A stretch of DNA of 64,000 nt from Vibrio rhizosphaerae. GTDB taxonomy: Bacteria; Pseudomonadota; Gammaproteobacteria; Enterobacterales; Vibrionaceae. This document shows positions 24,946-39,733 of this stretch, in pieces. Made by a program: the position numbers and the translations under genes. How positions within the stretch are numbered: position 1 is the first letter of the stretch; every line of letters begins with the position of its first letter. The DNA is taken from contig NZ_AP024903.1 of the NCBI RefSeq assembly GCF_024347095.1, forward strand, positions 1,798,001-1,862,000, given 5' to 3'. The notes beneath the pieces are model-generated. The model was not told the origin of the DNA, searched no databases, and was given only the letters and a program-made list of their open reading frames with translations.

Positions 24946-25253
24946 CCCAAAATCTCATACTTTTTTCATACTTTTATTTTCCCAAAAACAGATAACCTAC
25001 CCTCTGCACTGGCAAAATCCGGTGCCGGGCGTAGGAACCCGCATTTCCCCACAAGGCATGATAAATGTCAGTTTATACTGGTATTTTTCTATGTTACGCT
25101 TTAGCTCGCCTAATTATGGTGGGCTGGGCAAGGCAGCTTCGGCTGGCTGCTAACCTTGTGGAGCGGTATTCCTACACCTTGTTCCAGTTCACCACCCGAA
25201 ACGTAGGAATTTCGTGTGGTGTTCATATCTCAACAACCACAAGGAGTTCCACT
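24946..25253 (+). ncRNA. C4-type antisense leader, unit A
   Basis: Structured leader of the 65-aa gene. A constant block, TGCACTGGCAAAATCCGGTG then CCGGGCGTAGGAACCCG (about 25014-25041), is followed by a variable part. Three related elements can be seen: GTAGGAA (25031) with CCACAAGG (25049-25056); the complement CCTTGTGG (25154-25161) with ATTCCTAC (25168-25175); and GTAGGAAT (25203-25210) with CCACAAGG (25237-25244), whose AAGG is the start of the ribosome-binding site. So the middle segment is complementary both to an upstream decoy and to the ribosome site. This is the layout of the C4 antisense RNA of phages P1/P7/P4. The 24946-25010 stretch is conserved between units and should contain the promoter. 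Confidence 0.75.
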
Positions 25254-25451
25254 ATGTACGAAACCATCCCTTACAATCCCGAGTTCGCCCAAAAAGCCCG
25301 CGAATACTTGCGTCAGTTAGAAGAAATATTCGAAGCCGAACAGCGGCACAACAGTCAAGAGCTACGCAACGTACTGCTGTATCTGAATAATCTGATTACC
25401 ACTCATTATGTGCGCTACCATCAAGAGATTGACGGGGAGGATTTGGTGTAG
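25254..25451 (+). CDS. 65-aa protein behind C4-like leader, copy A
   Basis: Small acidic, helical protein (MYETIPYNPEFAQKAREY...) with no signal peptide or membrane segment; I do not recognise the family. AAGGAG lies nine bases before the ATG and is the predicted target of the antisense word. Three nearly identical copies occur (also 36478 and 39491), each with its own leader and the same downstream hairpin. In phage P1 the position is held by icd/ant genes, but this protein does not resemble them by eye. Conservation of the protein while leaders differ argues that it is a real gene. Confidence 0.75.
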   Translation: MYETIPYNPEFAQKAREYLRQLEEIFEAEQRHNSQELRNVLLYLNNLITTHYVRYHQEIDGEDLV

Positions 25452-25472
25452 TTAATGGGTTTATTTGGATTT

Positions 25473-25496
25473 CGAGCCGCGGTTGCGGCTCGTTTT
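25473..25496 (+). terminator. Rho-independent terminator of 65-aa unit A
   Basis: CGAGCCGC (25473-25480) and GCGGCTCG (25485-25492) form a perfect stem with GGTT loop, then TTTT. The same hairpin occurs at 27816, 36697 and 39710. Confidence 0.85.
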
Positions 25497-25510
25497 GAAA
25501 TATAAGATGT

Positions 25511-25645
25511 AACTAGTCGGCTATGTCCCTGACCGGGGTGATACCGCCACCCCGGATATTCATCTCAAGGGGAAGTCGCTACGCGAGGCCGGGCACCGTC
25601 AACATCATTGCGGACTGAATTGTGCTTGTCCCCGATATCAGTTGA
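25511..25645 (+). pseudogene. SymE-like toxin gene remnant A
   Basis: One frame reads GYVPDRGDTATPDIHLKGK then LREAGH, and after a frame change continues TVNIIAD...IVLVPDIS before a stop. This resembles the SymE_toxin domain (DIxLKGxWLxxAGF ... VxVxxGxIVL). It lacks a start, has a stop immediately upstream and carries a frameshift, so it is dead. SymE genes are commonly found close to rhs loci. Confidence 0.6.
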
Positions 25646-25655
25646 TATGAATGAA

Positions 25656-25686
25656 AACAGCCGGGACTACTTTTAGCCCGGCTGTT
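25656..25686. terminator. Bidirectional hairpin between SymE remnant and immunity gene
   Basis: AACAGCCGGG (25656-25665) pairs with CCCGGCTGTT (25677-25686), with T runs on the plus strand and A run on the other side. Near-copies occur at 30301-30327 and 31487-31517, and a decayed one near 36880. Confidence 0.75.
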
Positions 25687-25736
25687 TTTTTGAGGATGGC
25701 TGAATGTCTGAATCAGATTAGCATGTTTATTAATTA

Positions 25737-26108
25737 TTAATATGCTGGTGATAAGCGTTTTCCTACTTTGAAATCATCCAAATCAATTTCAAACTGCCAG
25801 TCTTGAAAATTGTTGACAATAGAATCATAAGATCCAATAACAGATATGTTACTCTTAGCTGCTGGGTTTTCAGATAGGTACTGATAATAAATATCTTCAT
25901 CTGAATTGGCTATTTCCCCTAATATTTCACCTTGAATGGAAAATACTGTAGCTTGAACATTTTCCTTTCCTCCATATTCCATACTGACAATCATATCATA
26001 ATGTGGACTATATGCAGCACAGCCTAAATTTTCATATCTAATATAGAAATATTCACCGTCAATTAACCAACGACTCCAATCAAAATTTTCAGAGTTTTCA
26101 ACAATCAT
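25737..26108 (-). CDS. Putative immunity protein, copy A
   Basis: 123 residues, acidic, no signal peptide; family not recognised. The start ATG overlaps the stop of the upstream rhs toxin fragment by four bases (ATGA), the usual toxin-immunity arrangement. The protein is identical to the one encoded at 31568-31939, which follows an identical toxin end. It should bind and neutralise that toxin domain in the cytoplasm. Still intact although its toxin is on a truncated rhs. Confidence 0.75.
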   Translation of the reverse strand: MIVENSENFDWSRWLIDGEYFYIRYENLGCAAYSPHYDMIVSMEYGGKENVQATVFSIQGEILGEIANSDEDIYYQYLSENPAAKSNISVIGSYDSIVNNFQDWQFEIDLDDFKVGKRLSPAY

Positions 26109-27429
26109 TTTATCTTCACCGTATCCTCTACTCTTAAGTATTTCATTTTTAAGCTGACATCTCTTGGTAACAGAAGTTGGAGTTGACTTCCTCCACCCGG
26201 GATATATCTCTTCTTACCATCTGAAAGAACCTCGACTTGAGGGCCAACAGGACCTTCGAGAACTTCAAAAGGTTTATCAACTTTATATGTAACGACCCGA
26301 TCAACACCTTGAGGTTTCCATGACCGCTTAACTGCAAGTTCATTCCAGACATAATTAGAGTTTGGAATAGTATCTATTGTACCAAAACCTCCAGGACTCG
26401 TTACTGGTTGTATAGGGGCGACAGCCATATTAAATGTTTCCCCTGGTTGAATTGTTCTTTGTGCTGGAGTATATCCATAAGGCCAAGGCGACTCGTTCTG
26501 AATCAAATCCTGATATGCTTTCGACGCTTCAGCCCTAGTTTTAAATTGGCCTGCATGATCTTTCTGAAATTCATTCCATGCGTTATGATAAAGCCCTTTC
26601 GATGTCTTAGCATGCTGAGCTACGCCAAGCTTACAAAGCCCTTGACATGCCTTCATCATCAACCCTAGCGGATCCACCCACCCCGTCGGATTTTTCACAT
26701 ACTGGTAGTTGTTTAAACCACCCGCAAGCCCAATCGGATCGGGGGTGATAAAGCGCCCGGTGCCCGGGCTATAGTAACGATGACGGTTGTAATGTAAACC
26801 CGTTTCTGCATCATAATACTGCCCCTGAAAACGTAGCGGGCTGACGATTTGTGCCTTGCGCTGATAAGCGACATTGCCGTAACTGTGGTAATCCACCGAC
26901 CATGCCACGGCACCGGTAGCATCGGTAATTTCCAGCGGCGTACCAATCTGGTCAAGGTGATAGAAATAAGGTGTGGCGTTGTCTGCTCCTTCACCGGTCA
27001 CCAGTGCCAGCGGTTTAAAGCTGCCGTACTCGTACAGATAGGTCTGGTAGTGGCGCTCACCCGACTCTGCCAGCAGTTTATCTCCCTGCCACAGAAATTC
27101 AGTTTGCCGGGTTTGCCCGGTTTTGTCGGTAACCGCTTTATGAATCCGTCTGCCGAACGCATCATATCGATATTCAGCGCTGCTGCCGTCAGGCTTTTCA
27201 ACTCTGATAAGCCGGTGCTGGCAGTCATATGCATAGGTTGTGACCAGAGACTGCTGGGTGCCCCGCGCTTCCTGTATCAGGTTACCGAACTCATCATACT
27301 GAAAATGACTGGTCAACGCGCCCTGTGTCCGGCGGGTTTCCAGACCGCTCACCTGATATTGGTGTTGCGTCAGGCAATGCCCGTTCAGGCTGACCTGCTG
27401 CAGCCGCCCGTGCTGAAATTGATAATCAA
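26105..27429 (-). pseudogene. Truncated rhs C-terminal cassette A (TNT-like toxin)
   Basis: Only the distal rhs shell remains. Homology to the full rhs stops at 27429, where CRISPR repeats begin; the first Met in frame is at 27352, but the frame is open to the junction. About 94 codons of YD repeats are missing compared with the full gene: HFQYDE joins directly to FGNLIQEARG. After the conserved border DPLGL comes a 184-residue toxin domain. Its end contains KPFEVLEGPVGPQ and PGGGSQLQLLLP, which resembles the C-terminal part of TNT (tuberculosis necrotizing toxin, an NAD+ glycohydrolase; DUF4237). That assignment is tentative. It is probably silent but recombination-competent with the full rhs. 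Confidence 0.75.
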
Positions 27430-27432
27430 GAC

Positions 27433-27522
27433 TGGTTCATCCCCGTGTGTACGGGGAACACGCTGGATTCATTCGAGCGATAGAGATACCAGTCGGTTCA
27501 TCCCCGTGTGTACGGGGAACAC
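27433..27522 (-). CRISPR. Two-repeat, one-spacer type I-E CRISPR
   Basis: Repeats at 27434-27461 and 27494-27522 are identical over 28 bases (GGTTCATCCCCGTGTG... ending GGGGAACAC), with the CCCCGT/ACGGGG stem of type I-E repeats. The 32-base spacer (27462-27493) gives a 61-base period, exactly the I-E value. Read on the minus strand the repeat starts GTGTTCCCCG and ends GGATGAACCG, so the leader lies to the right (27523 onwards). The left end is cut directly by rhs sequence. No cas gene is in the window. Confidence 0.92.
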
Positions 27523-27640
27523 TCCAAATATAGATTATTGATCAATAAAAAGAAATTTCATCATTAACAATCTACCAACATTTTAAAGAACAAAAATCAT
27601 CTTTCCAAAGTGCTGCAACTGAATTGAATTCTATCAATTT
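27523..27640 (-). promoter_or_regulatory. Type I-E CRISPR leader
   Basis: AT-rich. On the minus strand TTGGTAGATTGT (complement of 27567-27578) ends 44 bases before the first repeat. From memory the same motif and spacing occur in the E. coli type I-E leader, where the upstream motif and IHF guide spacer insertion. TTGATCAATAATC nearer the repeat resembles an IHF site. This side would have faced the cas operon. Confidence 0.7.
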
Positions 27641-27642
27641 CA

Positions 27643-27790
27643 GACAATCATCGGCTGATTATTTTTAGAACCCACACCCAAAATCTCATACTTTTTTCAT
27701 ACTTTTATTTTCCCAAAAACAGATAACCTACCCTCTGCACTGGCAAAATCCGGTGCCGGGCGTAGGAACCCGTAACAACTCACAGCATAT
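27643..27790 (+). ncRNA. Truncated C4-like leader, unit B
   Basis: The constant block (TGCACTGGCAAAATCCGGTG, GTAGGAACCCG) and the first decoy word ACTCAC (as in unit C) are present. The sequence then jumps from CATTTGGG straight to the terminator hairpin at 27816. The antisense word and the 65-aa gene are deleted. Non-functional remnant. Confidence 0.7.
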
Positions 27791-27815
27791 GGATTGCCAA
27801 CATCATTTGGGTTTT

Positions 27816-27839
27816 CGAGCCGCGGTTGCGGCTCGTTTT
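27816..27839 (+). terminator. Terminator of deleted unit B
   Basis: Same CGAGCCGC-GGTT-GCGGCTCG hairpin (27816-27835) and TTTT as the intact units. Confidence 0.8.
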
Positions 27840-27855
27840 GGAATATAAGGTGTAA

Positions 27856-27928
27856 CTCGGCTACGTCTCTGACCAAGGCGATACTGCCACCCCGGATATT
27901 CATCTCAAGGGTAAGTGGCTGCGGGAAA
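27856..27928 (+). pseudogene. SymE-like remnant B, cut by IS sequence
   Basis: Matches the PDIHLKGKWLR segment of the other SymE-like remnants, then ends where IS-derived sequence begins at about 27931. Confidence 0.5.
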
Positions 27929-27930
27929 CG

Positions 27931-28059
27931 TGACACAGAATAATGAACAATCTCCCGAGAGCAGCTTCAGTGATTTGCTTAATCAGCGGCGTGAGCAGGC
28001 CATCTTTGCCGTTCAGTCCTTGTCCAGATTGGAGAGCTTTGGCAAAGGCCTGAATATCG
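27931..28059 (-). mobile_element. Outer IS256 copy: inverted end plus transposase 5' fragment
   Basis: 27931-27956 is an IS 3' terminal repeat in reversed orientation. 27955-28059 equals 29174-29279 of the intact element (transposase codons about 8-43). This is the interrupted half of an older copy; its other half, containing the start codon and 5' end, is at 29362-29452 beyond the inserted element. Confidence 0.8.
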
Positions 28060-29361
28060 GAGACTGTTCATTATTCTGTGTCACGCCCATTTTTATAAAT
28101 CCAGGTATGGGGTGAGTCGACCTTCAAAGTGGATACTGAGCTGAGACAGCGTCAGGTTCCAGTTTTGCACCGGATGCGTCCATTTTTCACTGGCTTTCAA
28201 CATACCTGCATACAATAGCTTGAGCAAGCTGGTTTCATTGGCGAAGCCACCTTTGGTCTTGGTCAGCTTGCGGAACTGCCGATGTACCGCCTCAACCGCA
28301 TTGGTGGTGTAAATAGCTCTGCGAACCTGCTCGGGATATTTGAAATATACCGATAGGTTCTCCCATTTATTGCGCCATGACTGAATCACCAACGGATATT
28401 GTTGCCCCCATTTGATTTCCAGCTCATCAAGTTCGTGCTCGGCAGCCTTGAGCGTCGCAGCTTTATAGACGCACTTTAAATCTGCCATAAAAGCTTTCTG
28501 ATTTTTGCTGGCGACATATTTCATCGAGTTGCGGATTTGATGGATAACACAGAGCTGAACTTCGGTTTGCGGATAAATGGTTTCAATCGCTTCTGGGAAT
28601 CCTTTGAGACCATCGACACAGGAAATACAGATATCTTTGACACCGCGATTTTGTAAGTCGGTCAGGACACTGAGCCAGTAATGCGCGCCTTCGGCATCAG
28701 AGAGATAAATGCCCAGCAGCTCTTTTTTTCCTTCGATATTGAGTGCAAGGATGGTGTAAATAGCTTTGGAAACAAAGCGGCCGTTTTCCTTGATTTTGTA
28801 GTGAACGGCATCGAGCCATACGACCGGATAGACGGGGTCTAAATCGCGCTCCTGCCATGCTCTGAGCTCAGGAATAAGACGGTCGGTGATGGCGTTAATC
28901 GTGCCATTGGAAACGCTGATACCATACATATCCAGCAGATATTCGCGGATATGTTGATAGCTGTTGCCAAGGGCAAACAAGGAAAGGACATTGCGTTCCA
29001 TCTCATCGGTCAGCCGGGTCTGGTGCTTCTTGACAGTTTGCGGGTCAAAAGAGCCATTGCGGTCACGGGGAGTTTCGAGTTCAAATTCGCCGGATGAGGT
29101 TTTGATATTTTTCCGGGACTTACCATTTTTTCGATTATCGGGTTCATCAGCAAGGTGCTGGTCAATTTCAGCGCCGAGAGCAGCTTCAGTGATTTGCTTA
29201 ATCAGCGGCGTGAGCAGGCCATCTTTGCCGTTCAGTCCTTGTCCAGATTGGAGAGCTTTGGCAAAGGCCTGAATATCGATTTCGAATTTATCGTCAGACA
29301 TAAAGTGTCATTTCCTTTTTGGTTCAGTTTACAGAAATGACACAGAATTTTGAACACTACC
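28060..29361 (-). mobile_element. Intact IS256-family insertion sequence
   Basis: 1302 bases bounded by inverted ends GAGACTGTTCATTATTCTGT (left) and, on the other strand at the right, GGTAGTGTTCAAAATTCTGT; both continue GTCA. Flanked by an 8-base target duplication GAATATCG at 28052-28059 and 29362-29369. The target lies inside another copy of the same element. Holds one complete transposase gene. Confidence 0.9.
28093..29301 (-). CDS. IS256-family (Mutator-type) transposase
   Basis: 402 residues, full length. The DDE residues are visible: first Asp in VVWLDAVHYKI (about 175), second Asp in CISCVDGLKGFPEAI (about 240), Glu in IYTTNAVEAVHRQFRK (about 345), with the C-H region VQLCVIHQIRNSMKYV typical of the family. 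N-terminal GKDGLLTPLIKQITEAAL matches the family start. No frameshift is seen, so the element may be active. A 35-base 3' tail separates the stop from the IS end. Confidence 0.97.
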   Translation of the reverse strand: MSDDKFEIDIQAFAKALQSGQGLNGKDGLLTPLIKQITEAALGAEIDQHLADEPDNRKNGKSRKNIKTSSGEFELETPRDRNGSFDPQTVKKHQTRLTDEMERNVLSLFALGNSYQHIREYLLDMYGISVSNGTINAITDRLIPELRAWQERDLDPVYPVVWLDAVHYKIKENGRFVSKAIYTILALNIEGKKELLGIYLSDAEGAHYWLSVLTDLQNRGVKDICISCVDGLKGFPEAIETIYPQTEVQLCVIHQIRNSMKYVASKNQKAFMADLKCVYKAATLKAAEHELDELEIKWGQQYPLVIQSWRNKWENLSVYFKYPEQVRRAIYTTNAVEAVHRQFRKLTKTKGGFANETSLLKLLYAGMLKASEKWTHPVQNWNLTLSQLSIHFEGRLTPYLDL

Positions 29362-29452
29362 GAATATCGATTTCGAATTTATCGTCAGACATAAAGTGTC
29401 ATTTCCTTTTTGGTTCAGTTTACAGAAATGACACAGAATTTTGAACACTACC
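29362..29452 (-). mobile_element. 5' end of the interrupted outer IS copy
   Basis: A repeat of 29271-29361 (91-base offset): transposase start codons, upstream region and right inverted end. It continues the fragment at 27955-28059 after removal of the inner element and one GAATATCG. Confidence 0.85.
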
Positions 29453-29575
29453 TCAGCTACAGCTACATCACTCGATCAGAGCGAAGACTACCGTCAACAT
29501 CTGAGGCTGTATTTGTGAATCAGGTAGCGGTCTGTTTCTATTAACTTTCACAGCTCGTTTTAATGAGCATAAAAA

Positions 29576-29917
29576 TCATTCATAGTTACCTTCGGATTCA
29601 TCCAGAATATGAATCAGCTCATCTCTAGATATTCTGTTATCGTCATTAATCTTACCTTCCCAATCTTCTTCTGGGGATATTTCAACGATGTACAACTCTA
29701 CACCAATCGAATCAAAATATTTAAGAATACTACGAATTTTCTTTGCAACTTGAGGGTAATCATTTAAGAACAATTCTGCTGTAAAAAAAACACCTTCATA
29801 ACCATATCCCAATGTCTTTTTAGCTGCGACTAATGACATCCCTAAAGTTTTATGTAGAAATTTCGCAGCATCAATATTATCCAATGGTTGACTAACTGAT
29901 ATAGATATTTTAGACAT
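29576..29917 (-). CDS. Putative immunity protein for GHH-type Rhs toxin
   Basis: 113 residues, acidic, cytoplasmic; family not recognised. ATG 29917 shares one base with the toxin fragment stop (TAATG), so it is coupled to it. Sequence features: N-terminal MSKISISVSQPLDN and a predicted alternating alpha/beta pattern. It has no nearby intact toxin and now stands as an orphan immunity gene that could still protect against sister cells. Confidence 0.65.
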   Translation of the reverse strand: MSKISISVSQPLDNIDAAKFLHKTLGMSLVAAKKTLGYGYEGVFFTAELFLNDYPQVAKKIRSILKYFDSIGVELYIVEISPEEDWEGKINDDNRISRDELIHILDESEGNYE

Positions 29918-30227
29918 TAAAATTCCTCTTTCACATTAACATTCAATGGTTTTCCACTTGTTTCATTTCTAAAGTTTCCACCATGCCAACGATATAAATG
30001 TTCATATCTTGTTGCGGGATACAGATTCACAGGATTATCCGCAAGATGAGGATAAGATAAAGCATTATATCGATGGTGTGCTTCCATTTTCTCACCCTCA
30101 AATTTAGGCCTTTTGCCATTCACTATAGCTTCTGTTTGAGCCTCATCCCAATTTCTGGTTCCCGGTTGACCATTTTTAAGTCTTTTCTTTTCTTCTCGCC
30201 AAAATCTATCAACACCACGATTACGTC
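29917..30227 (-). pseudogene. Orphan Rhs toxin tail, GHH/HNH-nuclease type
   Basis: An open frame without start reads NRGVDRFWREEKKRLKNG..., then MEAHHRYNALSYPHLADNP, YPATRYEHLYRWHGGNF and GKPLN. These are hallmarks of the Tox-GHH/HNH-ENDOVII nuclease tails found in enterobacterial Rhs proteins; here the motif is AHH rather than GHH. The rhs core and the toxin's N-terminal part are missing, and the sequence joins a SymE-like remnant at about 30230. A GTG at 30123 could start a 68-residue product, but that is unlikely to be the original gene. Confidence 0.7.
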
Positions 30228-30237
30228 TGGACGAAGA

Positions 30238-30289
30238 TCATCGTCAATATCACCGCAGACTGTATTGTGCTCGTTCCCGATATCAGTTG
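30238..30289 (+). pseudogene. SymE-like C-terminal remnant
   Basis: Reads IVNITADCIVLVPDIS then stop, matching the end of the SymE-like remnants at 25511 and 36735. Followed by the CAGCCGGG/CCCGGCTG hairpin (30301-30327). Confidence 0.5.
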
Positions 30290-30300
30290 ATGAAAAAAAA

Positions 30301-30327
30301 CAGCCGGGGCTATTTTTAGCCCGGCTG
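30301..30327. terminator. Hairpin between SymE remnant and cassette B
   Basis: CAGCCGGG (30301-30308) pairs with CCCGGCTG (30320-30327), with A-run before and T-rich sequence after. Same element as 25656-25686. Confidence 0.65.
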
Positions 30328-30371
30328 CTGTTTTGAGGATGTGGATTTATTCACTGGGTAGAATGTCCCTG

Positions 30372-30707
30372 TTAATTTACAACTGGGGAGGAAGACGAAT
30401 ATATCTTCCATACATTTTCTTCCGTGGGGAAAAAATATATATTTTCATCCTGTACCTTATATAAGTTAACAACAAAAAAGTCATTAGGACAAAAGGCATT
30501 CATATCAAATCCTTCATTACTTTCGAGAGAAAAACTATCAACTCGATTAAAATATATAGTAGCTTTAGAACCATCCTCTAGTTCCGCTGAAATTTCCAAC
30601 GATCCCTTATTCGCATCATAGAAGACTTTCTCCATTGGCACAAAATCAAAGCACAACTCATCGAATACTATATCTAACTCTTTATCTTTCATAATAATGC
30701 CTTTCAT
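30372..30707 (-). CDS. Putative immunity protein of cassette B
   Basis: 111 residues, acidic, no signal. Its ATG overlaps the toxin stop by four bases. It is not similar by eye to the other immunity candidates here, as expected for a partner of a different toxin. The start could also be the Met at residue 6 (30692). Confidence 0.65.
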   Translation of the reverse strand: MKGIIMKDKELDIVFDELCFDFVPMEKVFYDANKGSLEISAELEDGSKATIYFNRVDSFSLESNEGFDMNAFCPNDFFVVNLYKVQDENIYFFPTEENVWKIYSSSSPVVN

Positions 30708-31452
30708 TTCGCTCCCAAAGTTATATTTTGACCATCTCCAAGCTTTAGTTTTATCGTCACGCCACTCGTTTTAGTCGTCATTTTCCAAGCTTGAGCTTTA
30801 ACTTCATCAGCAGTTGCCCACTCAACAGGTATACTATTCATACCCGATTCCTTAAATGCAGCTAACCGTCTATGATCCAGAGACCAAATATTTCCTTCTG
30901 TATCTTTCCACACTTTAATCGTAGTTAAATTTTCAGCCTTCAGGGCCCCACTCTTCAGAGCTTCAGCATTGCCAAGTACAGTATAATCACCCGTAGTATT
31001 TTTAATACTACTCTGCATATAGCGGATATCTTGCGGATTTAAAGATGAAGGTTTAAGAGGATCATCAACAAAATTCTTATAAGAATTTTTCCCTAATTTT
31101 GCAGTAGCACTCCCCGGACAATCTATCAACTCATTTACCAACCCCAACGGGTCAATCCACCCCGTCGGATTCGGCGCATACTGATAGTTATTCAACCCGC
31201 CCGCTAAACCTATCGGGTCTGCGGTGGTGAAACGTCCAGTCTCCGGGCTATAGTAACGGTGTCGGTTGTAATGTAAACCCGTTTCTGCATCGTAATACTG
31301 GCCCTGAAAACGTAGCGGGCTCTGAATTTCTTCAACCTGCTGAGTCAGTACGCTGCCATAAGCGCGATACTGCACTGCCCACACACTCTGCCCGGCCACA
31401 TCGGTGATTTCTGTTGGTGTGCCGATTTGGTCAAGGTGATAGTAGTACGGTT
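30704..31452 (-). pseudogene. Truncated rhs C-terminal cassette B
   Basis: Rhs core end (YGSVLTQQVEEIQSPLRFQG, then GLHYNRHRYYSPETGRF) ending in DPLGL, followed by a 144-residue toxin domain. The core differs from cassettes A, C, D and the full gene (AVQYRAYGSV instead of SVDYHSYGNV), so it comes from another rhs lineage. The toxin contains IKVWKDTEGNIWSLDHRRLAAF and IPVEWATADEV, a pattern reminiscent of ParB-like nuclease folds; I cannot name it. The first Met in frame is at 31399; homology stops at about 31452 against a SymE-like fragment (GTGCTCATCCCCGATATCAG). Confidence 0.7.
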
Positions 31453-31486
31453 GTGCTCATCCCCGATATCAGTTGATTTGAATGAA

Positions 31487-31517
31487 AACAGCCGGGACTA
31501 TTTTTAGCCCGACTGTT
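31487..31517. terminator. Hairpin between cassettes B and C
   Basis: AACAGCCGGG and CCCGACTGTT with one mismatch, followed by TTTTT. Copy of the 25656 hairpin with the same flanks. Confidence 0.65.
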
Positions 31518-31567
31518 TTTTTGAGGATGGCTGAATGTGTGAATCAGATTAGCATGTTTATTAATTA

Positions 31568-31939
31568 TTAATATGCTGGTGATAAGCGTTTTCCTACTTT
31601 GAAATCATCCAAATCAATTTCAAACTGCCAGTCTTGAAAATTGTTGACAATAGAATCATAAGATCCAATAACAGATATGTTACTCTTAGCTGCTGGGTTT
31701 TCAGATAGGTACTGATAATAAATATCTTCATCTGAATTGGCTATTTCCCCTAATATTTCACCTTGAATGGAAAATACTGTAGCTTGAACATTTTCCTTTC
31801 CTCCATATTCCATACTGACAATCATATCATAATGTGGACTATATGCAGCACAGCCTAGATTTTCATATCTAATATAGAAATATTCACCGTCAATTAACCA
31901 ACGACTCCAATCAAAATTTTCAGAGTTTTCAACAATCAT
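31568..31939 (-). CDS. Putative immunity protein, copy C
   Basis: 123 residues, identical in protein to the 25737 gene; one silent difference was noticed (AAATTT versus AGATTT near 31857). ATGA overlap with the toxin stop. Probably neutralises the TNT-like domain encoded just upstream. Confidence 0.75.
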   Translation of the reverse strand: MIVENSENFDWSRWLIDGEYFYIRYENLGCAAYSPHYDMIVSMEYGGKENVQATVFSIQGEILGEIANSDEDIYYQYLSENPAAKSNISVIGSYDSIVNNFQDWQFEIDLDDFKVGKRLSPAY

Positions 31940-34003
31940 TTTATCTTCACCGTATCCTCTACTCTTAAGTATTTCATTTTTAAGCTGACATCTCTTGGTA
32001 ACAGAAGTTGGAGTTGACTTCCTCCACCCGGGATATATCTCTTCTTACCATCTGAAAGAACCTCGACTTGAGGGCCAACAGGACCTTCGAGAACTTCAAA
32101 AGGTTTATCAACTTTATATGTAACGACCCGATCAACACCTTGAGGTTTCCATGACCGCTTAACTGCAAGTTCATTCCAGACATAATTAGAGTTTGGAATA
32201 GTATCTATTGTACCAAAACCTCCAGGACTCGTTACTGGTTGCATAGGGGCGACAGCCATATTAAATGTTTCCCCTGGTTGAATTGTTCTTTGTGCTGGAG
32301 TATATCCATAAGGCCAAGGCGACTCGTTCTGAATCAAATCCTGATATGCTTTCGACGCTTCAGCCCTAGTTTTAAATTGGCCTGCATGATCTTTCTGAAA
32401 TTCATTCCATGCGTTATGATAAAGCCCTTTCGATGTCTTAGCATGCTGAGCTACGCCAAGCTTACAAAGCCCTTGACATGCCTTCATCATCAACCCCAGC
32501 GGGTCAATCCACCCCGTCGGATTTTTTACATACTGGTAGTTGTTTAAACCACCGGCAAGCCCTATCGGGTCGGGGGTGATAAAGCGTCCGGTGCCCGGGC
32601 TATAGTAACGGTGACGGTTGTAATGTAAACCCGTTTCTGCATCATAATACTGCCCCTGAAAACGCAGCGGACTGACGATTTCTGCCTTGCGCTGATAAGC
32701 CACATTGCCGTAACTGTGGTAATCCACCGACCATGCCACGGCACCGGTGGCATCGGTCATTTCCAGCGGCGTGCCAATCTGGTCAAGGTGATAGAAATAA
32801 GGTGTGGCGTTATCTGCCCCTTCACCGGTCACCAGTGCCAGCGGTTTAAAGCTGCCGTACTCGTACAGATAAGTCTGGTAGTGATGCTCTCCCGACTCTG
32901 CCAGCAGTTTATCTCCCTGCCACAGAAATTCAGTTTGCCGGGTCTGCCCGGTTTTGTCGGTAACCGCTTTATGAATCCGTCTGCCGAACGCATCATATCG
33001 GTATTCAGCACTGCTGCCGTCAGGCTTTTCAACTCTGATAAGCCGGTGCTGACAGTCATATGCATAGGTTGTGACCAGAGACTGCTGGGTGCCCCGCGCT
33101 TCCTGTATCAGGTTACCGAACTCATCATACTGATAATGACAGTCCCCCTGAAACAGCAGTTGGTTGCCGGACACATTGCTCAGCCGGTCTTGTATCAGGT
33201 TACCGGCCGGGTCATGGGCAAAGCTCTCGCTGATATTGCCGCGCACCTGTGTCAGGCGGTCTAACGGGTCGTAGTGATATTGCGTCACCCCGCGCAGGTT
33301 ATCTTCCACCTGCGTCAGGTTACCCGAGCGGTTGTACTGGTAACGGCGGAATAACGTCTGTTGCTGCGCCTGACTCACCCGGTGCTCACTCAACCGGCCC
33401 AGCTCGTCATACTGAAAATGACTGGTCAACGCGCCCTGTGTCCGGCAGGTTTCCAGACCGCTCACCTGATATTGGTGTTGCGTCAGGCAATGCCCGTTCA
33501 GGCTGACCTGCTGCAGCCGCCCGTGCTGAAATTGATAATCAATCTGCTGGCCGTCCGGTAACAGATGGGCGGTTAAGTGACCCATCGCATCATAACGGTA
33601 ACCGGCACTCGCCCAGCCCTGATGCTCAACCGTCAGCCGCCCCATCACGTCATAGGCATACGCCAGCGGCCACTGACCGTCATCCACCCCGGTCAGATTG
33701 CCCGACAAGTCATAGTGATAGCTGATAGTGGATTCATCCGGCAGGGTTTTCTCAATCAATTTGCCCTGCGCGTCATAGGCGTAACGGGTAGTCAGCTCCC
33801 CGCCTTCCCGGCCGATTTCGGTTTTCGCCGTCAGTTGGGTGTGACTGTCATATTCATAGACGAACTGACGCCCGTCAAAAGTCACTTCCCGCTGCACATG
33901 GCCGGTCGGCGTGTAGTCTATCTGGTAGCGCTCACCGCGCTCGTTGATAATGGCGCTGACAAAGTGGAACGGGTTGTCATAACGGTACTGCACCGTACTG
34001 CCG
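31936..34003 (-). pseudogene. Truncated rhs cassette C (TNT-like toxin)
   Basis: About 685 residues in frame from Met at 33993. Homology to the full rhs stops at 34003 inside the codons for PDGSTVQYRYDN, so the N-terminal half, signal/targeting part and most YD repeats are missing. The YD repeats present are complete here, unlike cassette A. The toxin domain matches cassette A except for isolated changes (e.g. MAVAPM versus MAVAPI). The border motif DPLGL is intact. Without vgrG and N-terminus it should not be delivered unless it recombines into the complete rhs at 40352. Confidence 0.8.
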
Positions 34004-34171
34004 GCACAGGCGGTGGGTAGTAGAGACTTAAAGAGGTAGGGTTAGGTAATGGATTGAGTATGAATTGTACCAGTGACACTGGATACGCTATTTGAAAATT
34101 TTTGCTATGCCCGAAATAATTTACATATTGTTAGACCCGTAGAATCTCCAAGAGGAAAATTCTTAACAAAA

Positions 34172-35629
34172 TTATGATTTTTTTTCATTTGAAAGAACAA
34201 TACTTTTATTAAGTTTTGCTATGTTACAAAAATACTCATTAACTACTAGTGGATCGCCTTGAGAATTCTCATTTGCATTTCTAACCATGCACATGGTGCA
34301 AAACTCTTTTTCTCCACATTGTATGCATTTAGGAAAATCTTTTTTTCTCAAACCTCTCAAATATTGTACTTTTTTAGAGTTATACCAAATCTCCTTCAGA
34401 GAGTTTTCTTTTATATTGCCAACAGTATAATCTTGCCAGCCTGCACAAGGATATACACTACCATTTTCTGATATACAGATTGATGAATAACAGATACTAC
34501 AAACGATATCATCTGATGTAATTTCTTTCTTTTCTTCTGCTTTATTTATAATATCTTTCAAATACTCATCATCACAATTAATTCTATTATTAATGATGTT
34601 TTTAATATCATTAACTGATAGACGATTATCCAAATTTTCTGTGTTATGATCATATCTTGCTATTAATGCGTAATCTTCTCCTACGGGAATGTTGTATTCT
34701 TTTGCCCATTCGATAACATCGAGATAACAATTTTTATTTTGCTCCATTATAGGACAACTTATTTGCAGTGGAATATTATTTTCAACTAGCTTTAAAATTG
34801 ATCTTTTTGTTTTTTCAAAACTACCTTTCATTTTTGTTATTTTATCATGAACATCAGGTTTCATTGAATACAATGAAACCTGAACGCCTAATAAACGATT
34901 TTTCTTCATCTCTTCAATATATGTATCATCAAGTAAAGTCAGATTACTGAGTATATTTACTGAAAAATCGTATTCTCTACATTTCTTCAAAAAATCGCAA
35001 AAACATTTATGTAGCAAAGGCTCTCCACCACTTAATGTTAAATGTAACACATTCATATCATAGCATTGATTTAAAATATCATAAAATAAATCAGATTCAA
35101 TATTTTTCATTTTATTATCATGAGGAATATAACAATGCACACATCTCTCGTTACACTTACTCGTAATTTCTATGTGAAGACTTGTAAGTTGAGGTTTATT
35201 TTTAAAGATTTCTTCGAAGAAATCTTGTGTGGATTTGTTAGGGTGAATATTTTCAGGAGAGAAACGTCTCTTACCCCGAAAGTCTTCTGGATGTTCGTAA
35301 GAAAAACCTATATCTTTTTCGTTACATTCTTCTAATGTACTTCCAGATGTAATAAATCCTTCTTTTTCTAACATAGAATAAAATTCAATTGCATCATTTT
35401 TAATATCATCAATGTCTACATCTGGAAATATACTACTTATTCTTCTTGCAAGAACATTTATTTCTTGCGGTTCTTTTTTCAGAATAGAAAAAAATATGGC
35501 ACCACTTTGAGATATTATCTTATCTCCGATATTATTTACTTTTTCATATCCAAAATTTCTATTATCTGTAATATAGCCAAATGTATTATAATTTCTAAAG
35601 AGAACATTTGATTTTTGCTTAAAAAACAT
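34172..35629 (-). CDS. Radical SAM/SPASM peptide maturase with PqqD-like N-terminus
   Basis: 485 residues. Residues 25-95 look like a PqqD-type RiPP recognition element (NNIGDKIISQSGAIFFSILK ... MLEKEGFI). The radical SAM cluster motif is C159-NER-C163-VH-C166, followed by SGGEPLL (200-206). The C-terminal SPASM region has cysteines at about 377, 380, 385, 395, 435, 438, 444, 447 and 468, enough for two auxiliary Fe-S clusters. It should modify the 38-residue peptide encoded 66 bases upstream. AT-rich sequence unlike the rhs flanks implies import as a block. No exporter or protease gene is beside it. Product type (thioether, C-C crosslink or epimer) cannot be told from sequence. Confidence 0.92.
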   Translation of the reverse strand: MFFKQKSNVLFRNYNTFGYITDNRNFGYEKVNNIGDKIISQSGAIFFSILKKEPQEINVLARRISSIFPDVDIDDIKNDAIEFYSMLEKEGFITSGSTLEECNEKDIGFSYEHPEDFRGKRRFSPENIHPNKSTQDFFEEIFKNKPQLTSLHIEITSKCNERCVHCYIPHDNKMKNIESDLFYDILNQCYDMNVLHLTLSGGEPLLHKCFCDFLKKCREYDFSVNILSNLTLLDDTYIEEMKKNRLLGVQVSLYSMKPDVHDKITKMKGSFEKTKRSILKLVENNIPLQISCPIMEQNKNCYLDVIEWAKEYNIPVGEDYALIARYDHNTENLDNRLSVNDIKNIINNRINCDDEYLKDIINKAEEKKEITSDDIVCSICYSSICISENGSVYPCAGWQDYTVGNIKENSLKEIWYNSKKVQYLRGLRKKDFPKCIQCGEKEFCTMCMVRNANENSQGDPLVVNEYFCNIAKLNKSIVLSNEKKS

Positions 35630-35637
35630 AATTATGG

Positions 35638-35690
35638 CCTTATTGAAGAAAGCGACGAATGCGGCTCCACAACATTGTCGCTATTAATGA
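35638..35690 (-). promoter_or_regulatory. Hairpin between precursor and maturase genes
   Basis: On the minus strand AGCGACAATG pairs with CATTCGTCGCT (one bulge) over an 11-base loop, in the 65-base gap after the precursor stop. It may partly stop transcription so that precursor mRNA exceeds enzyme mRNA, as in many RiPP operons. Confidence 0.5.
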
Positions 35691-35694
35691 CACC

Positions 35695-35811
35695 TTAACG
35701 GCCACTTGGTCCAGGTGGGTTACAAGGTCTTCCGCTCGGCTTACTATTAGGACGACATTGAGCCATATGTGTAGTGCTTTGTGCTAAAACTACTGGTTTT
35801 TTGTAAACCAT
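35695..35811 (-). CDS. Candidate RiPP precursor peptide, 38 aa
   Basis: ATG 35811 follows AAAGGAG at a six-base spacing, the best ribosome site in the area. The peptide begins MVYKKPVVLAQSTTHMAQ (likely leader) and ends CRPNSKPSGRP-CNPPGPSGR (likely core), with two cysteines at 19 and 30 and many Pro, Gly, Ser and Arg residues. It lies directly upstream of the radical SAM/SPASM gene on the same strand. Not matched to any RiPP class I know. Cysteines plus a SPASM enzyme suggest thioether (sacti/ranthipeptide-like) or cyclophane chemistry; that is inference. No GG processing site is visible. Confidence 0.8.
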   Translation of the reverse strand: MVYKKPVVLAQSTTHMAQCRPNSKPSGRPCNPPGPSGR

Positions 35812-36150
35812 ATTCCACTCCTTTCTATAAAACCATGATTATAATTGATCATCAAAAAAAGTAGGTCAATCGGTACAAAAGCCATATATGCTACTTTTTG
35901 ATACAACATTGACGTAGAGCAATTTTATTCTATGCATTTATCTTGTTATGCAAAGTTGATAAATTTAGTATTAAGACATTTAAATTGCATTGAATCTAGT
36001 CAATTGATATTCCATTACTGATATGTTTGAGGGGATAAACGAATCTTTTAGGCAGGAGCTCAAAGAAGAACTGAATACTTATCAAATGTGTAGTGATTAG
36101 TGAATCATCATTTGTAACTCACTTCTGTCCAATTTATTGTTAAGCCACCA
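35812..36150. other. AT-rich spacer upstream of RiPP locus
   Basis: No intact gene. On the minus strand TATAAT (35837-35842) with an upstream TTGACC (20-base gap, long for sigma-70) could serve the precursor. A short plus-strand frame at 36023-36100 is listed separately. Confidence 0.4.
36023..36100 (+). pseudogene. Possible N-terminal remnant of AlbA_2-type ATP-binding protein
   Basis: Reads MFEGINESFRQELKEELN then TYQMCSD and stop. From memory INESFRQELKxxLN begins many AlbA_2 (Schlafen-like) DNA-binding proteins; the rest is missing. Short, so only a suggestion. Confidence 0.3.
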
Positions 36151-36159
36151 TTAAATTAC

Positions 36160-36477
36160 CGTGATCGCCCCCTCAAAACCTAATACTTTTTTCATACTCT
36201 TATTTTCCCCAAAACAGATAACCTACCCTCTGCACTGGCAAAATCCGGTGCCGGGCGTAGGAACCCGCAACAACTCACAGCATATGGATTGCCAACATCA
36301 TTTGGGTTTTCTATTATGTACGGCCTCAGCACATCTGAATTATGGTGAGCTGGACAAGGCAGCCTTGGCTGGCCGTATCGTGAGTGCGGTATTCCTACAC
36401 CTTGTTTCAGTTCGCCACTCAGAGCGTAGGAACTTTGTGTGGCGGTATTTCAAAATCACTCACGGAGTCTCTGCACT
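36160..36477 (+). ncRNA. C4-type antisense leader, unit C
   Basis: Same plan as unit A with different words. Constant block at 36229-36267; decoy GTAGGAA (36257) and ACTCAC (36273-36278); antisense CGTGAGTG (36379-36386) and ATTCCTAC (36391-36398); target GTAGGAA (36426-36432) and CACTCACG (36457-36464), adjoining the GGAG ribosome site. The hairpin pair CGCCAC/GTGGCG replaces CACCAC/GTGGTG of unit A, a compensatory change. Confidence 0.75.
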
Positions 36478-36675
36478 ATGTACGAAACCATTCCTTATAA
36501 TCACGAGTTCGCCCAAAAAGCTCGCGAATACTTGCGTCAGTTAGAAGAAATATTCGAAGCCGAACAGCGGCACAACAGTCAAGAACTACGCAACGTACTG
36601 CTGTATCTGAATAATCTGATTACCACTCATTATGTGCGCTACCATCAAGAGATTGACGGGGAGGATTTGGTGTAG
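36478..36675 (+). CDS. 65-aa protein behind C4-like leader, copy C
   Basis: Differs from copy A by one residue seen (Pro9 to His). Ribosome site GGAG lies in the antisense target region, about ten bases from the ATG. Followed by the shared terminator hairpin at 36697. Confidence 0.75.
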   Translation: MYETIPYNHEFAQKAREYLRQLEEIFEAEQRHNSQELRNVLLYLNNLITTHYVRYHQEIDGEDLV

Positions 36676-36696
36676 TTATTTGGTTTATTTGGATTT

Positions 36697-36720
36697 CGAG
36701 CCGCGGTTGCGGCTCGTTTT
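36697..36720 (+). terminator. Terminator of 65-aa unit C
   Basis: CGAGCCGC-GGTT-GCGGCTCG hairpin (36697-36716) then TTTT. Confidence 0.85.
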
Positions 36721-36734
36721 GGAATATAAGGTGT

Positions 36735-36870
36735 AACTCGTCGGCTACGTTCCTGACCGGGGCGATACCGCCACCCCGGATATTCATCTCAAGGGTAAAT
36801 GGCTGCGCGAGGCCGGGCACCGTCAACATCACTGCGGACTGAATTGTGCTTGTCCCCGATATCAGTTGAT
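36735..36870 (+). pseudogene. SymE-like remnant C
   Basis: Best preserved copy: GYVPDRGDTATPDIHLKGKW then LREAGH, followed by a frame shift to NITAD...LVPDIS-like sequence. No start codon. A decayed form of the CAGCCGGG hairpin follows near 36880-36909. Confidence 0.6.
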
Positions 36871-36957
36871 ATGAATGAAAACAACCGGGACTATGTTTAG
36901 CCCGGCTGCTAAGGGAGCTGGATTTGTGGTTCGGGTTAGCGTATCCCTGTTAATTTA

Positions 36958-37152
36958 TTACTCTAATCTAATTTTTTGTAATAAATTTTTAAGATATTCA
37001 TGATCATCTTTTATCTTATTTACTTCATCTTCTGATAACTCTATTTTCTTTTCATAAATTGCAGCACTTGCCCCACAAACTACAAACAAGAAATATGAAT
37101 CCTGCTCATAAACTAGTCTATAATTATAAGGCTCGCTAGATATAACCTTCAT
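36958..37152 (-). CDS. Putative immunity protein of cassette D
   Basis: 64 residues (MKVISSEPYNYRLVYEQDSY...), ending in a charged helix. The ATG overlaps the cassette D toxin stop by four bases. Small for an immunity protein, but position and coupling are right. No family recognised. Confidence 0.6.
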   Translation of the reverse strand: MKVISSEPYNYRLVYEQDSYFLFVVCGASAAIYEKKIELSEDEVNKIKDDHEYLKNLLQKIRLE

Positions 37153-39057
37153 TCAAACTTCCTTTCACTAAATTTTCTTTCTGGAATTCTATCAACAATT
37201 GCTTCTGAACGACCAGTAGGTAACTTACCACCAGGTATCCATTCTGAGTTGGCTCCCATTTCATTTCCACTTGGCATTCGAAGATTCAAAGTAACAGGTT
37301 CTGGAATGTCAATAACCGATATTTTCCGTCCCTGCCAAGAACCTTCAGGTATCCCCATTATTTTTTCTAGCTTAGCGATATCACCACCTGATTCTTTTAT
37401 AACTTCGTTCAACTGTTTAGTCGGCATAACAAACTGGGTATTATCTGGAAAACCTAGTAGCCCTCTTCCATAGCTATCTAATATATCGGTTGGGACAAAA
37501 TAACTAGCTCCATCATTAAATTGGGAAAGATGAGAATCTATATAATCTTTTGATAAATATTTGCTTGGGTCTGGTCTCTCACCATGAGGAATAGAACGAA
37601 TTTCATCTATCTGTCCTTGTGTCAAAGGCACTTTTCCACCCGGACAATCCCCCACACACTGCGTTAACCCCAGCGGATCCACCCATCCCGTCGGGTTTTT
37701 CACATACTGGTAGTTGTTTAAACCACCCGCAAGCCCTATCGGGTCGGGGGTGATAAAGCGTCCGGTGCCCGGGCTATAGTAACGATGACGGTTGTAATGT
37801 AAACCCGTTTCTGCATCATAATACTGCCCCTGAAAACGCAGCGGACTGACGATTTCTGCCTTGCGCTGATAAGCCACATTGCCGTAACTGTGGTAATCCA
37901 CCGACCATGCCACGGCACCGGTGGCATCGGTAATTTCCAGCGGCGTACCAATCTGGTCAAGGTGATAGAAATAAGGTGTGGCGTTGTCTGCCCCTTCACC
38001 GGTCACCAGTGCCAGCGGTTTAAAGCTGCCGTACTCGTACAGATAGGTCTGGTAGTGATGCTCTCCCGACTCTGCCAGCAGTTTATCTCCCTGCCACAAA
38101 AATTCAGTTTGCCGGGTCTGCCCGGTTTTGTCGGTAACCGCTTTATGAATCCGTCTGCCGAACGCGTCATATCGATATTCAGCGCTGCTGCCGTCAGGCT
38201 TTTCAACTTTGATAAGCCGGTGCTGACAGTCATATGCATAGGTTGTGACCAGAGACTGCTGGGTGCCCCGCGCTTCCTGTATCAGGTTACCGAACTCATC
38301 ATACTGATAATGACAGTCCCCCTGAAACAGCAGTTGGTTGCCGGACACATTGCTCAGTCGGTCTTGTATCAGGTTACCGGCCGGGTCATGGGCAAAGCTC
38401 TCGCTGATATTGCCGCGCACCTGTGTCAGGCGGTCTAACGGGTCGTAGTGATATTGCGTCACCCCGCGCAGGTTATCTTCCACCTGCGTCAGGTTACCCG
38501 AGCGGTTGTACTGGTAACGGCGGAATAACGTCTGTTGCTGCGCCTGACTCACCCGGTGCTCACTCAACCGGCCCAGCTCGTCATACTGAAAATGACTGGT
38601 TAACGCGCCCTGTGTCCGGCGGGTTTCCAGACCGCTCACCTGATATTGGTGTTGCGTCAGGCAATGCCCGTTCAGGCTGACCTGCTGCAGCCGCCCGTGC
38701 TGAAACTGATAATCAATCTGCTGGCCGTCCGGTAACAGATGGGCAGTTAAGTGACCCATCGCATCATAACGGTAACCGGCACTTGCCCAGCCCTGATGCT
38801 CAACCGTCAGCCGACCCATCACGTCATAGGCATACGCCAGCGGCCACTGACCGTCATCCACTCCGGTCAGATTGCCCGACAAGTCATAGTGATAGCTGAT
38901 AGTAGATTCATCCGGCAGGGTTTTCTCAATCAATTTGCCCTGCGCGTCATAGGCGTAACGCGTAGTCAGCTCCCCGCCTTCCCGACCGATTTCGGTTTTC
39001 GCCGTCAGTTGGGTGTGACTGTCATACTCATAGACGAACTGACGCCCGTCGAAGGTC
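37149..39057 (-). pseudogene. Truncated rhs cassette D, unidentified toxin
   Basis: About 636 residues of distal rhs shell joined at DPLGL to a 171-residue toxin domain. Homology to the full gene ends at 39057, in the codons for VTFDGRQF; from 39058 the sequence is the CRISPR-leader copy. The toxin includes SYFVPTDILDSYGRG, QFVMPTKQLNEVI, GSWQGRKISVIDIPEP and RMPSGNEMGANSEWIPGG. I do not recognise it; conserved Gly/Asn-rich PSGNEMGAN suggests an active-site loop. The translation start shown in frame (39059 TTG) is an accident of the junction. Confidence 0.75.
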
Positions 39058-39150
39058 AAATTTCATCATTAACAATCTACCAACATTTTAAAGAACAAAA
39101 ATCATCTTTCCAAAGTGCTGCAACTGGATCAAATTTTATCAATTTCAGAC
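39058..39150 (-). promoter_or_regulatory. Orphan second copy of the CRISPR leader
   Basis: 39058-39150 matches 27553-27650 almost base for base, including the complement of TTGGTAGATTGT at 39072-39083. The repeat-proximal 30 bases and all repeats are missing; rhs sequence abuts instead. Confidence 0.75.
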
Positions 39151-39159
39151 AATCATCGG

Positions 39160-39490
39160 CTGATTATTTTTAGGACCCACACCCAAAATCTCATACTTTT
39201 TTCATACTTTTATTTTCCCAAAAACAGATAACCTACGCCCTGCACTGGCAAAATCCGGTGCCGGGCGTAGGAACCCGCTCACAAGACTCCAAGTATTATA
39301 GGTTGCTAACTTTACGTTGGTTTTTTACTATATGCGGCCTCAGCACATCTGAATTATGGTGAGCTGGGCAAGGCAGCCTTGGCTGACCGTGTCTTGGAGA
39401 GCGGTATTCCTACACCTTGTTCCAGTTCACCACCCGAGTGTAGGAACTCTTGTGGTGAGTTTATTTTCATCATTCTCCAAGGAATTAACT
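39160..39490 (+). ncRNA. C4-type antisense leader, unit D
   Basis: Decoy GTAGGAA (39267-39273) and CTCCAAG (39287-39293); antisense CTTGGAGA (39393-39400) and ATTCCTAC (39406-39413); target GTAGGAA (39440-39446) and TCTCCAAG (39474-39481), overlapping the AAGGA ribosome site nine bases before the ATG. Same design as A and C with a third private word. Confidence 0.75.
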
Positions 39491-39688
39491 ATGTACGAAA
39501 CCATCCCTTATAATCCCGAGTTCGCCCAAAAAGCCCGTGAATATTTGCGTCAGTTAGAAGAAATATTCGAAGCCGAACAGCGGCACAACAGTCAAGAGCT
39601 ACGCAACGTACTGCTGTATCTGAATAATCTGATTACCACTCATTATGTGCGCTACTATCAAGAGATTGACGGGGAGAATTTGGTGTAA
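39491..39688 (+). CDS. 65-aa protein behind C4-like leader, copy D
   Basis: Same protein as copies A and C except near the end (RYYQEIDGENLV instead of RYHQEIDGEDLV). Hairpin terminator follows at 39710. Confidence 0.75.
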   Translation: MYETIPYNPEFAQKAREYLRQLEEIFEAEQRHNSQELRNVLLYLNNLITTHYVRYYQEIDGENLV

Positions 39689-39709
39689 TTAATGGGTCTA
39701 TTTGGATTT

Positions 39710-39733
39710 CGAGCCGCGGTTGCGGCTCGTTTT
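39710..39733 (+). terminator. Terminator of 65-aa unit D
   Basis: CGAGCCGC-GGTT-GCGGCTCG hairpin (39710-39729) and TTTT. Confidence 0.85.

Follow-up and report, generated by a model that had tools for sequence, protein, structure and literature searches.

Multi-copy C4-type antisense cassettes with private pairing words in Vibrio: candidate self-silencing units near weapon and defence genes

We have analysed a 64,000-nt stretch of the Vibrio rhizosphaerae genome (contig NZ_AP024903.1, positions 1,798,001 to 1,862,000; hereafter the window, to which the coordinates below refer) in which three leaders, those of units A, C and D, precede genes for 65-aa proteins between rhs cassettes. The Rfam model of the C4 antisense RNA (RF01695) scores above its gathering threshold in all three leaders, and it appears probable that each unit is a self-contained C4-type cassette silencing its own 55-65 aa gene, with pairing words that are distinct between paralogs. 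The fold of the C4 RNAs, the words, their covariation and uniqueness within each genome, the constraint on the small protein and the association of the units with genomic islands are demonstrated below at the level of sequence.

A first-pass annotation of the window had described, in each leader, a private word occurring upstream, as its reverse complement in the middle, and again at the ribosome-binding site (RBS) of the 65-aa gene, and had likened this arrangement to the c4 antisense logic of phages P1, P7 and P4. Every one of the quoted words was read back at its exact coordinates (starting at 25049, 25154 and 25237 in unit A, 36273, 36379 and 36457 in unit C, 39287, 39393 and 39474 in unit D), the upstream word of unit C being only 6 nt long. 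The likeness to the phages is supported both by the Rfam matches and by the record of phage P1 (AF234172, RF01695), in which a1, b1, c4, a2, b2 and icd follow each other in the same order. Following that record, we refer to the private RBS word as b, and to a second pairing, between GTAGGAA and ATTCCTAC, as a; the latter was read back in, and is common to, units A, C and D. Taken together, the C4 matches, the cognate words and the P1-like layout identify a C4 system. The layout of a unit is leader (a1, then b1), C4 (b', then a'), a2, anti-P1 strand, b2, open reading frame (ORF) and terminator, as follows:

25006..25087, plus strand: unit A leader, isrK-type, with a1 GTAGGAA at 25031-25037 and b1 CCACAAGG at 25049-25056 (Rfam isrK, RF01394, 51.2 bits, over the cut-off)
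25112..25199, plus strand: unit A C4 antisense RNA, with b' loop CCTTGTGG at 25154-25161 and a' strand ATTCCTAC at 25168-25175 (RF01695, 54.4 bits)
25203..25244, plus strand: unit A targets, a2 GTAGGAAT at 25203-25210, anti-P1 strand GTGGTG at 25216-25221, and b2 CCACAAGG at 25237-25244, which overlaps the Shine-Dalgarno sequence of the small ORF
25254..25451, plus strand: unit A small ORF, 65 aa
25473..25496, plus strand: unit A intrinsic terminator
36232..36312, plus strand: unit C leader, with a1 at 36257-36263 and b1 ACTCAC at 36273-36278 (isrK model, E 2.7e-8, under the cut-off)
36338..36422, plus strand: unit C C4 RNA, with b' CGTGAGTG at 36379-36386 and a' at 36391-36398 (RF01695, 45.3 bits)
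36426..36464, plus strand: unit C targets, a2 at 36426-36432, anti-P1 strand GTGGCG at 36439-36444, b2 CACTCACG at 36457-36464
36478..36675, plus strand: unit C small ORF, 65 aa
36697..36720, plus strand: unit C intrinsic terminator, followed by a SymE-like remnant at 36734-36817
39242..39326, plus strand: unit D leader, with a1 at 39267-39273 and b1 CTCCAAG at 39287-39293 (isrK model, E 8.1e-9, under the cut-off)
39352..39437, plus strand: unit D C4 RNA, with b' CTTGGAGA at 39393-39400 and a' at 39406-39413 (RF01695, 50.2 bits)
39438..39481, plus strand: unit D targets, a2 GTGTAGGAA at 39438-39446, anti-P1 strand GTGGTGA at 39452-39458, b2 TCTCCAAG at 39474-39481
39491..39688, plus strand: unit D small ORF, 65 aa
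39710..39733, plus strand: unit D intrinsic terminator

When 30 C4 RNAs, that of P1 among them, are folded together with RNAalifold, they adopt the C4 fold, and 18 of its 26 pairs show compensatory changes; in the consensus b' lies in a hairpin loop and a' is unpaired in the junction, and a GGTG at the start of the RNA is kept in all 30 sequences. Single folds of the C4 RNAs of A, C and D have the same shape, with z-scores from -3.0 to -3.9 (-38.8 kcal/mol and z -3.0 for unit A).

The serial repetition between rhs cassettes proposed in the first-pass annotation holds for A, C and D, but the family is not confined to such places: the host genome (4.56 Mb in two contigs) has 13 C4 matches, all over the Rfam cut-off and found on both contigs, and in 13 of 13 cases an ATG ORF of 55-65 aa, always from one and the same family, is present 51-57 nt downstream. 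Likewise the a pairing, which had been considered constant, is constant only within subgroups, as there are 7 different a words among these 13 units. C4 matches at E 0.001 occur in 35 of 148 sampled Vibrio genomes (34 over the cut-off), for a total of 143 matches; five genomes hold 23, 21, 16, 14 and 13 copies, and the remaining positives have no more than 7. A class-wide sample of 369 genomes contained 24 with C4 at E 1e-6, where further expansions reach 10, 6 and 6 copies; in one of these (G408) the a word differs in each of the five fetched units that have an ORF, while a single b word is common to four of them. A 1.5-Mb genome (L184) has four consecutive C4 units, three of them with one b word and differing a words.

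Pairing was studied with a set of 104 units from nine Vibrio genomes, consisting of the 13 host units and 91 fetched from the 130 other matches; 95 units from eight genomes were scored, and rankings within a genome were based on the 92 units of the seven genomes having four or more units. The RBS word forms at least 7 consecutive Watson-Crick pairs with the loop of its own C4 in 67 of 95 units, as compared to 1.7% of 1370 foreign pairs (same genome, other words), and the upstream word does so in 61 of 95, as compared to 2.6% of 1370 foreign pairs. If at least 6 pairs are considered, the RBS word pairs in 77 of 95 units, and in 66 of these 77 it overlaps a Shine-Dalgarno-like 4-mer. In the host genome the private-word duplexes have a mean energy of -13.9 kcal/mol with their own target and -6.7 kcal/mol with foreign targets (0 of 10000 permutations). 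Word pairs are unique within their own genome in 91 of 92 units, and by the summed energy of the a and b duplexes the own target is the best or tied in 86 of 92 (G000 13/13, G110 14/14, G068 18/18, G131 14/16, G084 18/22, G037 5/5, G103 4/4). The orthogonal specificity suspected from three leaders is thus recovered as predicted pairing, and covariation is borne out over the units of many genomes by own and foreign duplexes, permutations and RNAalifold. A hairpin that had also been thought to covary, with arms CACCAC/GTGGTG in A and D and CGCCAC/GTGGCG in C, has at least 6 pairs in 76 of 95 units, its arms being mostly constant; the difference between own (-11.79 kcal/mol) and foreign (-11.18 kcal/mol) duplexes is slight, yet never reached in 2000 permutations, and hence this covariation is real but small.

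In the mechanism that we consider, the cassette would comprise a leader with the decoy targets a1 and b1, a C4 RNA of ~85 nt, the 55-65 aa gene and, in most units, a terminator. Released from the transcript, possibly by RNase P as in P1, the C4 RNA would fold as a three-way junction, with b' exposed on a hairpin loop and a' at the junction; by pairing with a2 and b2 of its own mRNA it would cover the Shine-Dalgarno sequence, such that the small protein would remain silent unless C4 is lost or titrated. Since the b words, and in part the a words, differ between paralogs, each C4 would mainly recognise its own mRNA, and with orthogonal words a large number of paralogs could be kept side by side, no single C4 silencing the whole set. 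We infer the transcription, processing and translational repression of the units, the processing and the block by analogy with P1.

Several observations weigh against this interpretation. Nine of the 104 units were dropped before scoring, four without an ORF by the finder and five with a start outside 38-62 nt. Host units L008 and L009 have both words identical, and in four related genomes 4 within-genome pairs share both words if one mismatch per word is allowed; 6 of the 92 ranked units are predicted to bind another target better than their own, and in G084 the upstream copy of b is weak (own -7.9, foreign -7.0; 283 of 10000 permutations), with the own target best in 3 of 22 units. No terminator was called in 32 of 95 units, and a sigma-70 scan before unit A remained at chance level (1 site, 0.9 expected), with no convincing promoter. 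The small protein has nothing over the cut-off in Pfam, a single match in NCBIfam (E 0.12, obtained by one of the 12 members scanned) and no Icd-type match there, no match in PADLOC, and none in a PDB sequence search with the family profile. Finally, cross-pairing between units with different words is about as strong within a genome (-12.74) as between genomes (-12.87; the difference is reached in 380 of 2000 permutations of the labels), with no sign of extra repulsion: the evolved avoidance of cross-talk that the first-pass annotation had read into the units finds no support here beyond the distinctness of the words. Pairs sharing the RBS word within a genome are fewer (7) than the mean under permuted genome labels (15.4; reached in 5 of 2000 permutations), which orthology alone explains.

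The evolution of the words was followed in the MYETIPY subfamily (21 units from four genomes, with L134 left out for masked bases in its coding sequence), which provides 47 within-genome and 163 between-genome pairs; by definition a b word is the same at 90% or above. The b word is shared in 1 of 47 within-genome and 16 of 163 between-genome pairs. Outside the word, identity of the C4 frame amounts to 96% for the 16 pairs with the same word and to 81% for all others, whereas coding identity is 92% within genomes and 88% between genomes, with or without a shared word (89%, 83% and 86% in the same comparison if L134 is included), suggesting that the leader follows the word across species, while the coding sequence follows the genome. 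The flanks of same-word pairs are homologous in only 1 of 20 cases upstream and 5 of 20 downstream (local score of at least 60), and thus the unit behaves like a cassette. The pooled ratio of non-synonymous to synonymous changes (pN/pS) is 0.125 in this subfamily, which includes the ORF of unit A, and 0.64 and 0.52 in two more divergent ones. These data bear on the notion that the units are leader fragments duplicated by recombination of rhs and type VI secretion system (T6SS) loci, hitchhiking neutrally while their words drift. Three units and one remnant do lie between rhs cassettes, and the flanks of same-word units are mostly non-homologous between species; however, the three sites change together, the words recur unchanged in other species, and the ORF shows the low pN/pS given above, so that this explanation, already disfavoured, is highly improbable.

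Among 12 aligned host members of the small-protein family the invariant residues include L41 and LNNLIT at 44-49. A profile search identified 56 relatives, and all those with a listed organism are from Vibrio (V. gazogenes, V. spartinae and V. mangrovi among them). AlphaFold2, run on 54 aligned sequences, predicts a two-helix hairpin with a predicted local distance difference test score (pLDDT) of 82.5. PHROG returned two matches only (E 0.1 and 0.14), a fold search in a viral library nothing at E ≤0.001, and a scan of IMG/VR with the 65-aa protein no confirmed relative; in phage records there is one weak match, to a Streptomyces phage (40% identical, E 7e-3). A fold search of the PDB with the helical-hairpin model likewise gave nothing at E ≤0.001, the top row being the Tse2-Tsi2 complex at E 2.1. 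Of the 36 sub-threshold rows, 3 name Tsi2, a T6SS immunity protein, and 3 more PA2703, which we take to be Tsi2; this is a lead without statistical significance.

With regard to genomic location, 28 of the 64 units of four related genomes are within 10 kb of a VgrG or RHS gene, with 2.66 expected and 0 of 5000 circular shifts reaching this number. Integrases are not enriched in the same genomes (2 of 64 units within 10 kb, 2.38 expected), and linkage to prophages or satellites, as judged by integrases, was ruled against on this basis. This is relevant to the idea that the units are decayed immunity regions of P1/P4-like phages or satellites, whose residual job, if any, would be superinfection immunity against phages with the same words. 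C4 is indeed known from phage immunity regions, and by eye some C4s of G054 and G103 are followed by KilA-N-, Rha- or antirepressor-looking ORFs, while unit L001 stands beside phage-looking ORFs. The missing integrase link and the strong constraint on the small protein weaken this idea; the recurrence of the same words in other species and the outcome of the IMG/VR and phage searches also count against it, and we consider it improbable.

Defence genes are a second type of neighbour. Host unit L004 adjoins an operon for a cyclic-oligonucleotide-based antiphage signalling system (CBASS; cyclase, E1-E2-JAB and 2TM effector), and a cas operon that includes Cas3f and Cas8f lies between L011 and L007. 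From the 23 units farther than 20 kb from VgrG/RHS in the three other related genomes, 20 loci were surveyed; the 138 nearby ORFs considered (at most 7 per locus) match 110 PADLOC families (E ≤1e-15), as compared to 7 families for 133 ORFs from 20 control regions; PADLOC families are redundant, and the control regions were placed at arbitrary positions in these three genomes only. The control matches (mad3, with three ORFs as on the unit side, and RtcR-type, ZorB and BrxL models) are taken for housekeeping relatives. Single scans recognised systems in 5 of the 20 loci: Juk, a type II restriction pair, GajA of Gabija, type I-E cas and AbiE. In a further 20 loci (18 from a more distant Vibrio, 2 from another) 129 ORFs match 78 PADLOC families, and systems are again found in 5 of 20: GajA with GajB, PDC-S49, type IV restriction, a PD-T4-4-like ATPase (weaker, E 1.8e-29) and AbiLi. 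Single scans were run on 40 ORFs chosen by eye. Overall, defence systems are present at 10 of 40 loci and 0 of 20 controls (one-sided Fisher p 0.011, the loci being not fully independent owing to shared ancestry). By eye, the cargo appears to be swapped: units with b word TTTCTTGTGAG and differing a words have the same LysR- and ApbE-looking neighbours, but carry CBASS in the host genome and AbiE in Vibrio sp. MEBiC08052 (L017, L212), and the cas genes beside L011 and L120, two units with the same a and b words, are of type I-F in one species but of type I-E in the other. A 612-aa gene beside C4 units of two Vibrio genomes (L208:3870-5705 and L254:3883-5718, related-looking by eye) has no PADLOC match and is a candidate defence gene.

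Such neighbours could suggest that C4 is an attenuator of the adjacent defence operon, in which a block of the small ORF would silence the downstream genes by polarity, as with icd/ant1 of P1 and orf45/anrP of Gifsy-1. CBASS, AbiE, Juk and GajA are located downstream in the orientation of the unit, and P1 and Gifsy-1 act through a leader ORF of this kind, according to the P1 record and passages of PMC4825925. On the other hand, 63 of 95 units have a terminator-like hairpin with a T run within 110 nt of the ORF stop, as compared to 53 of 475 control windows, and L004 before CBASS and L134 before AbiE are among them; L007 and L120 converge with the cas genes, from which L011 diverges, units A, C and D converge with Rhs genes, the restriction pair (type II) near L204 is on both strands, and L110, the unit of the Juk locus, has no small ORF at the usual place. 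The terminators and mixed orientations weaken the attenuator explanation, which we regard as unlikely.

A fourth leader, absent from the first-pass annotation, is joined directly to a terminator, with neither C4 nor ORF:

27668..27839, plus strand: remnant B, with a1 at 27762-27768, the b word of unit C, ACTCAC, at 27778-27783, and a terminator at 27816-27839; repeat family D9

It differs from the leader of unit C by 1 mismatch over 57 nt from 27760, matches the isrK model at 27737-27816 under the cut-off (E 1.8e-7), and is predicted to fold into hairpins plus the terminator. Its predicted duplex with the C4 of unit C (-27.1 kcal/mol) is close to that of C's own leader (-29.7 kcal/mol), while the C4s of A and D lose 7 and 12 kcal/mol on remnant B relative to their own leaders; a transcript of remnant B would be an IsrK-like decoy for the C4 of unit C. 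SymE-toxin-like remnants (PF08845) follow both unit C (36734-36817, over the cut-off) and remnant B (27853-27927, under it), both matches being interrupted by a stop. At 27434-27522, inside an rhs fragment beside remnant B, there are two GGTTCATCCCCGTGTGTACGGGGAACAC repeats, presumably resembling the type I-E CRISPR repeat, and one spacer-like stretch.

As to the role of these putatively self-silencing cassettes, the most likely one, which we put forward tentatively, is that of addiction or abortive-infection modules of an RNA-antitoxin-like type, located in weapon and defence islands. In type I toxin-antitoxin systems, too, a small protein is silenced by a dedicated antisense RNA and paralogs are orthogonal; they differ in that the RNA is encoded on the opposite strand, whereas here C4 is upstream in the same transcript. 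A broader proposal, of which we are more doubtful, is that the C4-small-ORF cassettes might be an undescribed class of RNA-controlled conflict modules that marks Vibrio weapon and defence islands and is kept as large orthogonal sets by private antisense codes, with leader-only remnants such as B serving as sponges for the C4 of a sibling.

These results can be compared with known C4 systems. The heteroimmunity of P1 and P7, whose C4 loops differ, is described in passages of PMC5320573 and PMC12197685. The Vibrio units are like P1/P7 C4 in fold, loops and RBS site, but they are chromosomal, reach 13 to 23 paralogs in five Vibrio genomes, are often monocistronic, have word pairs unique within a genome, and, in the host genome, no ant gene follows their ORFs. 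Nor do they belong to the immI (c4-icd-ant) arrangement: 13 of 13 host units have another small-ORF family, with no resemblance by eye to the Icd ORF of P1. The group 1 C4-like small RNAs (sRNAs) of Acinetobacter baumannii, as presented in parts of PMC5320573, also have many copies per genome and a variable loop, and are processed from longer transcripts. Their targets are left open in those parts, while each Vibrio copy has a linked ORF with matching words; the variable loop is there called a', whereas in Vibrio it is the RBS loop (b in the P1 record) that varies most. In IsrK-orf45-anrP of Gifsy-1 (RF01394; passages of PMC4825925) a leader RNA pairs before or in the next ORF, as here, and the leader of unit A matches the isrK model; although the phrase 'C4 RNA' is absent from the main text of PMC4825925, the ~80-nt orf45' species may be a putative C4. 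The name of the c4-a1b1 motif (PMC2864571, from a table row) points to the upstream target region. Our searches of open-access papers revealed neither cognate ORFs linked to C4 in large orthogonal sets nor a connection with defence islands, and the listings showed nothing specific joining C4 with Vibrio, T6SS or defence islands; the main text of a 2025 paper on Hfq of A. baumannii (PMC12802169) has none of the terms sought. Already known are C4 RNAs as a family, the occurrence of C4 sRNAs in multiple copies with a variable loop, and two specificities in P1/P7; new are the many chromosomal, often monocistronic and mutually distinct C4 cassettes, unlinked to integrases. C4, known from phage immunity, is met here as a chromosomal gene family with many parallel RNA codes, which offers a natural test bed for the insulation of antisense pairs. 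The linked small ORF suggests where targets of the A. baumannii sRNAs could be sought, and, given the association with T6SS and anti-phage islands, the small proteins become candidate conflict genes and C4 a possible island marker.

Some additional features were noticed. A tandem ATACTT-TTTTY/N-ATACT box, a possible operator, lies 151-167 nt before C4 (24957-24972 in the window, and equivalents) in all scanned MYETIPY/MFETIHY units except L138, and seems by eye to be inverted before some LTARGYL units. Between rhs cassettes, a radical SAM/SPASM gene (Pfam; 34172-35629, minus strand) has just upstream a 38-codon ORF (~35695-35811, minus strand) with an end that by eye is rich in Pro, Gly and Ser, and the two look like a peptide-modifying pair. 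At 29271-29452, a 91-nt stretch forms a perfect tandem duplicate at the 5' end of what by eye is a transposase-looking ORF.

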